A stretch of 64,000 bases of DNA from Anaerolineales bacterium (lineage in GTDB: Bacteria > Chloroflexota > Anaerolineae > Aggregatilineales > UBA2796), in the NCBI GenBank assembly GCA_015075625.1, contig JABTTZ010000003.1, positions 558,001-622,000 on the forward strand. Direction: 5' to 3'. Shown in pieces: positions 14,937-16,690 of the stretch. Position numbers and translations under genes: made by a program. The notes beneath the pieces are model-generated. The model saw nothing but the letters and a program-made list of their open reading frames with translations. It did no database searches and was not told the DNA's origin. Within the stretch, counting starts at the first letter, position 1. Each line of letters starts with the position of its first letter.

Positions 14937-15143
14937 GAAAGAAGGGTTTTCTGAACATCGGTATGAATTAGGCGAATCAGTGAATGCATCCAGTCGATCA
15001 AAACCGATCACGACTAGGGAGCATACTCACCTCAATGCCCCTGATAGTTTACACCAAGCCCAGCAAACTCGTAAGCGTCGGGGCTAGGTTCTGTTGACAG
15101 TGTAATCCCAGTGATCCCGCCTTACGTTCTAAAAGAGGATGGA

Positions 15144-15404
15144 TTCCTTATTATGAATCATTCTATAGTTTGTAGTAGCCATAGGGGGTGTGGATATGTG
15201 GATAACTCCCTCAAAATCTGCCTGAACCCGCATGGTGAGGGGGAAAAGTTTTCAACACCCTATGTTGAAAACTCGCCAAGTTTTCAACACTTTCCACAAG
15301 TTTGTTTGGGTTGATCGATGGTGGGGAAGAGATGTGTTGAAAAGTGCCAAAGTTATCCACAGGTTTTCAACACAAAAGGGTGAGTTTTCAACAGGTTTTC
15401 AACA
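15144..15404. other. oriC: Candidate chromosomal replication origin (DnaA-box cluster)
   Basis: Eleven DnaA-box-like 9-mers lie in 15189-15404. Two are perfect TTATCCACA (15197-15205 on minus, 15353-15361 on plus). Seven are identical TTTTCAACA (plus at 15249, 15281, 15364, 15385, 15396; minus at 15263, 15335). Two are near-matches (ATATCCACA at 15189 on minus, CTTTCCACA at 15290). An AT-rich stretch (15144-15178) adjoins and could be the unwinding element. Every gene to the left of the cluster runs leftward and most genes for the next 10 kb to the right run rightward, as expected at an origin. dnaA and dnaN are not nearby, so a DnaA-titration or regulatory site is the main alternative. Confidence 0.62.
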
Positions 15405-15468: not shown

Positions 15469-15473
15469 CTCTC

Positions 15474-15566
15474 GTGGACATCAGGAGCGGTTCGGGAAAC
15501 ATCCGAACCCGGCAACCTGGGACGGACACCCCAAGGTGCTATCCCGCGAAGACTCGCGGGGATGCG
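15474..15566 (+). ncRNA. SAM riboswitch (SAM-I/SAM-IV clan)
   Basis: The core shows the S-box landmarks in order: 'CAGGAGCGG' (5' side of the junction), a hairpin with 7-bp arms GGTTCGG/CCGAACC, 'CCGGCAACC', a short GGG/CCC hairpin, 'AAGGTGCTA' and a hairpin CCCGCGA/TCGCGGG. The first and last segments (CATC and GATG) could close a short P1. SAM-I-clan RNAs bind S-adenosylmethionine and usually shut off methionine or sulfur genes. A promoter precedes it and an intrinsic terminator follows before the ACT-domain genes, so transcriptional attenuation by SAM is likely. The exact subclass (SAM-I, SAM-IV or a variant) needs a covariance-model search. Confidence 0.75.
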
Positions 15567-15627
15567 GCTTTTTGAAGGATTTTCCTTCGTGAGCAAACCA
15601 AGTGTCTGAACGATGCCGACCATCACA

Positions 15628-15753: not shown

Positions 15754-16332
15754 ATGAGTCAGCAGATTTTTCTCAGCAGCGCTTATACCTTGATTGGTGT
15801 GGATCGTTTCGGGATCGGTAATCCTCCCGACCTTACCGGACGGGCGTACCTCGCCGCCGCCGAAGCGAACGTGACGCCTTTGGTCATGTCGCAGGCGTGC
15901 GCAACGGGCAATTTTTGCCTTGTTGTACCTCAAGAGGGGGCATTTGCCTTACTGGATTCGCTGCGGGCGAATTTTCAAGAAGAAATTACTACGATTTGGG
16001 CGCGGTTCGATGTGGCACTTCTTCGCGCTCCGTTCACCGCAGTGGAGGCACTCGGTGCGGCGGGAGTGAATCTTCTCTTTATTCATTCCGCGGGCATAGG
16101 CGAGGCGTGGCTTGCCCTTGCCAATGACGATCTCCCCCGCGCCGAACAAGTACTACACCCGCTAGTCACCTCATGCTATACTGGTTCTACTCATCCTACC
16201 GATGCCGAAAACACGGTTACAACCCACATCCAACACCATGCCTCATACCTTCACCCTGATCGCTCTGCCCGGAACTTACGCCGTGTGCCGCCTGCGGGCG
16301 AATGCGCCCCTTCCGGCGTGGGTGCGTATTGA
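15754..16332 (+). CDS. Tandem ACT-domain protein, aspartokinase-C-terminus-like
   Basis: 192 residues. The first about 140 residues look like the two regulatory ACT domains of an aspartokinase without the catalytic kinase: 'LTGRAYLAAAEANVTPLVMSQ' is followed by 'NFCLVVPQEGAFALLDSL', then 'ALGAAGVNLLFIHSAG' and 'AWLALANDDLPRAEQVL'. ACT domains bind amino acids. The SAM riboswitch and terminator directly upstream suggest a role in methionine or aspartate-family regulation; that is inference. The last 50 or so residues are His/Arg-rich, do not look like ACT sequence and overlap the next gene out of frame, so the true end of the conserved protein is uncertain and a frameshift is possible. Confidence 0.65.
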   Translation: MSQQIFLSSAYTLIGVDRFGIGNPPDLTGRAYLAAAEANVTPLVMSQACATGNFCLVVPQEGAFALLDSLRANFQEEITTIWARFDVALLRAPFTAVEALGAAGVNLLFIHSAGIGEAWLALANDDLPRAEQVLHPLVTSCYTGSTHPTDAENTVTTHIQHHASYLHPDRSARNLRRVPPAGECAPSGVGAY

Positions 16333-16690
16333 TGATTCCGGCGGCTTCGTCTCCGTCACCCGCACACCAGAGGAACTCTCTCTTGTTGTGTCCGATGCCG
16401 CCCTACCACCGGGGCTGCGAACGGAGGATGCGGCAGGTAGTTACGAGGTTTTTGAGGATCATCCTGATCTCAAAGCAGAACGAGGCTGGACAGCGCTGCG
16501 CATCGCCGGAACGCTCGATTTTGGGATGACGGGCGTCCTTGCTGCGCTCACCGGCGTTTTAGCGCCGGTGGGGATCACCGTTTTCACCATCTCCACCTAT
16601 GACACCGATTATCTCTTTGTGCGCCACGAGAGCCTAGAGCGGGCGGCGCGTGTTCTCCGTTTAGAGGGGCATACCATTGATGTAGGCTGA
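16238..16690 (+). CDS. ACT-domain protein (ACT_7/CASTOR-like)
   Basis: About 150 residues from the ATG at 16238; an ATG 12 codons earlier is possible and neither has a clear ribosome binding site, which suggests translational coupling to the preceding ORF. The C-terminal half, 'LDFGMTGVLAALTGVLAPVG' then 'ITVFTISTYDTDYLFVRHE', is a typical ACT_7-type domain. The N-terminal half has a partner beta-alpha unit ('GGFVSVTRTPEELSLVVSD'). Relatives sense amino acids such as lysine, threonine or arginine. It overlaps the first ACT gene by 95 bp, and both follow the SAM riboswitch. Confidence 0.75.
   Translation: MPHTFTLIALPGTYAVCRLRANAPLPAWVRIDDSGGFVSVTRTPEELSLVVSDAALPPGLRTEDAAGSYEVFEDHPDLKAERGWTALRIAGTLDFGMTGVLAALTGVLAPVGITVFTISTYDTDYLFVRHESLERAARVLRLEGHTIDVG

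Follow-up and report, generated by a model that had tools for sequence, protein, structure and literature searches.

We observed a dense cluster of DnaA-type sites in a 64,000-nucleotide stretch of a Chloroflexota genome (the window, G000:C3:558001-622000; the genome, G000, comprises 4.68 Mb in five contigs). A sequence scan located eleven such sites within 216 bp (window 15189-15404), namely nine exact boxes (two TTATCCACA and seven TTTTCAACA) and two near matches (ATATCCACA and CTTTCCACA), all of them present as the original prediction had described. The cluster lies between divergent neighbors, a branched-chain amino-acid (liv-type) permease gene on one side and, on the other, a SAM-I/IV riboswitch and the genes linked to it. 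The riboswitch aptamer (15473-15610, 44.2 bits at a gathering threshold of 41.1) is situated directly to the right of the cluster and is followed by two overlapping open reading frames, 15754-16332 and 16202-16690, the second of which carries an ACT domain. The overlap of these two frames recurs in G010, the sole genus mate in our comparison set.

Features of the DnaA-box cluster and its unwinding module, in window coordinates.
Feature	Position	Strand	Remarks
AT-rich stretch, probable first strand-opening site (unwinding element)	15127..15166		Borders the module of trios and box pair; likewise in relatives
DnaA-trio-like repeats	15160..15184	+	GAT ACC GAT GAT GTT when read 3'->5' away from the box pair, beyond a GGGG spacer of 4 nt
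Tandem DnaA box pair TTATCCACATATCCACA	15189..15205	-	Near match ATATCCACA at 15189(-) and TTATCCACA at 15197(-); adjoins the trios
DnaA box TTTTCAACA	15249..15257	+	Counterpart of the first box in the relatives' plus/minus/plus module
DnaA box TTTTCAACA	15263..15271	-	Next box 18 bp on, likewise in relatives
DnaA box TTTTCAACA at 15281(+) and abutting near-box CTTTCCACA at 15290(+)	15281..15298	+	
DnaA box TTTTCAACA	15335..15343	-	Segment exceeds that of relatives by ~20 bp
DnaA box TTATCCACA, unchanged form	15353..15361	+	Order and flank match TTATCCACA of G003 and TTTTCAACA of G010
DnaA box TTTTCAACA	15364..15372	+	Extra 11-bp unit relative to G003
Two DnaA boxes TTTTCAACA, 11 bp apart (gagTTTTCAACAggTTTTCAACA), at 15385 and 15396	15385..15404	+	G003 counterpart is gagTTATCCACAggTTATCCACA

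The density of the cluster is far beyond chance. TTWTCMACA occurs 193 times in the whole 4.68-Mb genome, giving 0.009 expected sites per 216 bp and a Poisson P(≥9) of ~1e-24 for nine boxes in that span. A better cluster elsewhere, in particular near dnaA, was looked for, and the genome yielded no second paired-box site among direct and inverted pairs with up to 30 bp between boxes. The gene for DnaA is located on contig C1 (C1:1273148-1274575) and the cluster on C3. When C1 was scanned in full, the TTWTCMACA sites nearest to dnaA were at C1:1188433 and C1:1282032, with none between C1:1188442 and C1:1282031. The dnaN gene lies at C3:502008, 71 kb from the cluster, and the claim that neither gene is adjacent was confirmed. 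Two weak Bac_DnaA-family matches were noted in 479-aa open frames on C2 (L002 and L003, G000:C2:512465-513442), which are probably another AAA+ sequence.

To one side of the boxes lies a module resembling known unwinding regions. The AT-rich stretch reported beside the boxes is real: at 72.5% AT it ranks among the top 0.15% of all 40-mers in the window. The trio-like repeats lie on its side toward the tandem box pair; the chance of finding GATGAT 0-16 nt from a random point is 0.0016. A published search rule for the basal unwinding system (BUS) asks for an unbroken run of at least three NAN trios no more than 16 bp from a box (PMC8287927). The 4-nt spacer from the pair to the first GAT is well inside this distance, and no three consecutive NAN trios were found in G000, where the longest run is two (GAT GAT). 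G003, G004, G006 and G008 likewise fall short of three, while runs of 3-5 were seen in G002, G007, G009 and G010.

We compared the region across a family set of 11 genomes, consisting of G000 and ten relatives, all apparently at draft level or assembled from metagenomes. Recurrence of the boxes in close relatives had been proposed as a check, and we found a homologous cluster in 8 of the 10: G002, G003, G004, G006, G007, G008, G009 (by pattern search) and G010, in the last of which it sits at a contig end. With the patterns used, G001 and G005 showed no cluster. The clusters share one layout in the same orientation, running from trio-like repeats through a minus-strand tandem pair and plus/minus/plus boxes to further plus-strand boxes, several of them at 11-bp steps. 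Spacings in the plus/minus/plus module are 14-16 and 18 bp, and the 18-bp step is kept in 8 of 9 genomes, the minus box of G004 lacking a match at its last base. The gap from the tandem pair to this module is ~100-130 bp in relatives, compared to ~50 bp in G000. The trio register is common to nine family genomes, with a 4-nt spacer between box pair and first GAN trio in eight and a 3-nt spacer in G010. Seven of the 11 family genomes carry an exact copy of the 17-mer pair TTATCCACATATCCACA at the cluster (G007 has two there), and an eighth, G009, differs from it by a single C->A change; the pair was absent from all 149 other genomes sampled from the class. Identical DnaA domain IV sequences match G010, G003, G006 and G009 to the public MAGs Anaerolinea sp. 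CH2, Chloroflexi bacterium CFX4, SJ7 and Centralia_MAG_208, respectively. We also noted that G003 encodes a second, diverged DnaA-like protein with 34% identity (L177, G003:C22:6443-7750).

A skew change had been anticipated at the cluster (~15.2 kb) and was not seen. In a scan of nearly all of C3, raw GC and AT skew and gene-strand-corrected third-position skew showed no change at C3:573 kb beyond the local gene-strand effect. In 20-kb blocks sampled throughout G000, |GC skew| was at most 0.072 with inconsistent sign, and contig C11 of G003, which carries that genome's cluster, was equally flat along its whole length. Since neither G000 nor the tested relative has a usable skew, we regard this result as uninformative rather than refuting. 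The reported switch in gene direction held in part: long open reading frames in the 15 kb to the left are all on the minus strand, pointing away from the cluster, but to the right only half of the coding length within 15 kb, and 31% within 50 kb, is directed away from it. The switch is therefore local, and the argument from divergent genes is weak beyond ~15 kb.

Taken together, ~15127-15404 is very probably the chromosomal oriC of this Chloroflexota genome, situated away from dnaA, as the original prediction proposed. A detached origin best explains the unique paired box group, its conserved layout in 8 of 10 relatives, the family-specific 17-bp pair, the in-register trios, the AT-rich stretch, the differing flanking genes and the retention of DnaA contact residues. 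Against it stand the missing skew change, the interrupted trio run and the lack of a cluster in G001 and G005. In the mechanism that we propose, DnaA would bind the array of direct and inverted boxes, partly spaced at 11 bp (one helical turn), and the tandem pair would direct it onto one strand of the adjacent trio repeats. The AT-rich stretch would then open and the helicase be loaded. The seven TTTTCAACA boxes may serve as alternative DnaA sites, equivalent to the canonical ones.

Next to the conserved layout, the boxes themselves have changed. Most predicted initiator sites in G000 are shifted from the usual TTATCCACA to TTTTCAACA, two forms that differ at positions 3 and 6, while the canonical form is retained by the pair next to the trios and by one internal box. 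Boxes could be matched across genomes by order, spacing and flanks. For example, ctcgccaag directly precedes the TTTTCAACA box at 15281 and, in exactly the same way, a TTATCCACA box of G003; ctcgccaagTTATCCACA and gagTTATCCACAggTTATCCACA of G003 are the counterparts of ctcgccaagTTTTCAACA and gagTTTTCAACAggTTTTCAACA in G000. Because flanks are kept and only box positions 3 and 6 differ, these are substitutions and not copied units; an exception seems to be the box at 15364, apparently an added 11-bp unit. The original prediction regarded TTTTCAACA as a lineage-specific box, and we reject a lineage-fixed form because the genus mate is mixed: G010 retains TTATCCACA at several places that are TTTTCAACA in G000, and of its other matched boxes two are TTTTCAACA and one is TTTTCCACA. 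In other genera of the family, TTATCAACA appears instead. A role for TTTTCAACA as a widespread class box was likewise rejected, as its paired form occurs in 8 of 298 class genomes and forms an array in G000 alone.

We considered whether an altered DnaA specificity, fixed in the genus, underlies this change. Seven identical TTTTCAACA boxes with retained flanks would fit such a rewired recognition code, as would the covariation of positions 3 and 6 when the boxes of G000 and G010 are pooled (5 A3C6, 9 T3A6, 1 T3C6 and 0 A3A6 boxes; Fisher p=0.002), which is suggestive only, since boxes that share an origin are not independent observations. The genus also has specific DnaA residues near DNA (H402, L405 and D417-G418-G419, E. 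coli numbering). However, at the listed base-contact residues (399, 423, 432-435 and 439; PMC5043019) the DnaA of G000 is the same as that of some TTATCCACA-using relatives, and several boxes that are TTTTCAACA in G000 are still TTATCCACA in G010. Position 438 is variable across the family. A fixed change of specificity is therefore unlikely on this evidence, although a shifted preference of DnaA may be involved. Instead, we read the G000 DnaA as probably tolerant of both forms, with turnover of sites, and infer that it accepts TTTTCAACA as an alternative to TTATCCACA. We tentatively suggest that origin boxes in this genus move site by site between the coupled forms TTATCCACA and TTTTCAACA, positions 3 and 6 changing as a pair, with spacing, flanks and DnaA base-contact residues unchanged.

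Returning to the origin itself, we weighed a DnaA-titration or reactivation locus, similar to datA or DARS of E. coli, for which the many boxes in a non-coding stretch and the absent skew signal would speak. Such a locus would leave the genome without any other paired box group to act as origin, and the conserved module of trios, tandem pair and AT-rich sequence is of the unwinding type, which makes this reading very improbable. An operator through which DnaA or some other regulator controls the divergent permease and riboswitch genes would suit the position of the array, but is hardly credible, since the array persists while its neighbors change (a GAF histidine kinase in G010 and G007, FHA-domain genes in G002, G003 and G004, an M23 peptidase in G009 and an ARMT1-like protein also among the differing neighbors in relatives), which argues against a single-gene operator, and since in G010 the counterparts of the riboswitch-linked genes occupy a different contig from the array, where the 10 kb examined contained no boxes.

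The proposed origin resembles Bacillus subtilis oriC (BUS) in its box pair, short spacer, DnaA-trios, AT-rich stretch and further box array. It differs in that dnaA is not adjacent, the trios are interrupted and the boxes are mostly TTTTCAACA. Origins away from dnaA are known from E. coli (PMC8287927) and origins without typical GC skew from Cyanobacteria (PMC10225481), and species-specific box motifs are described as well (PMC10225481, PMC8287927); G000 shares with them an origin off dnaA or an unusable skew, and differs in gene neighbors and box form (TTTTCCACA in Cyanobacteria). The Mollicutes DnaA-box consensus TT(T/A)TC(C/A)ACA (PMC3322544, citing Cordova 2002) covers both TTATCCACA and TTTTCAACA. 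Mollicutes are an unrelated lineage, and in G000 changes at position 3 seem coupled to those at position 6 and not independent of them. What appears to be new is that several boxes changed at both positions with flanks, spacing and DnaA base-contact residues unaltered. Among titles and abstracts, we found none describing a Chloroflexi origin. For a Chloroflexota family in which near-zero skew and a separate dnaA would defeat origin finding based on either, the region supplies an origin with good support. Site-by-site box replacement within a preserved architecture would amount to a small natural experiment on the evolution of initiator binding sites.

Finally, we observed a ~38-bp element (CTAGGTTCTGTTGACAGTGTAATCCCAGTGATCCCGCC) at 15084-15121, of which ~40 partial or full copies occur genome-wide. 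It resembles the terminus of a mobile or MITE-like repeat.
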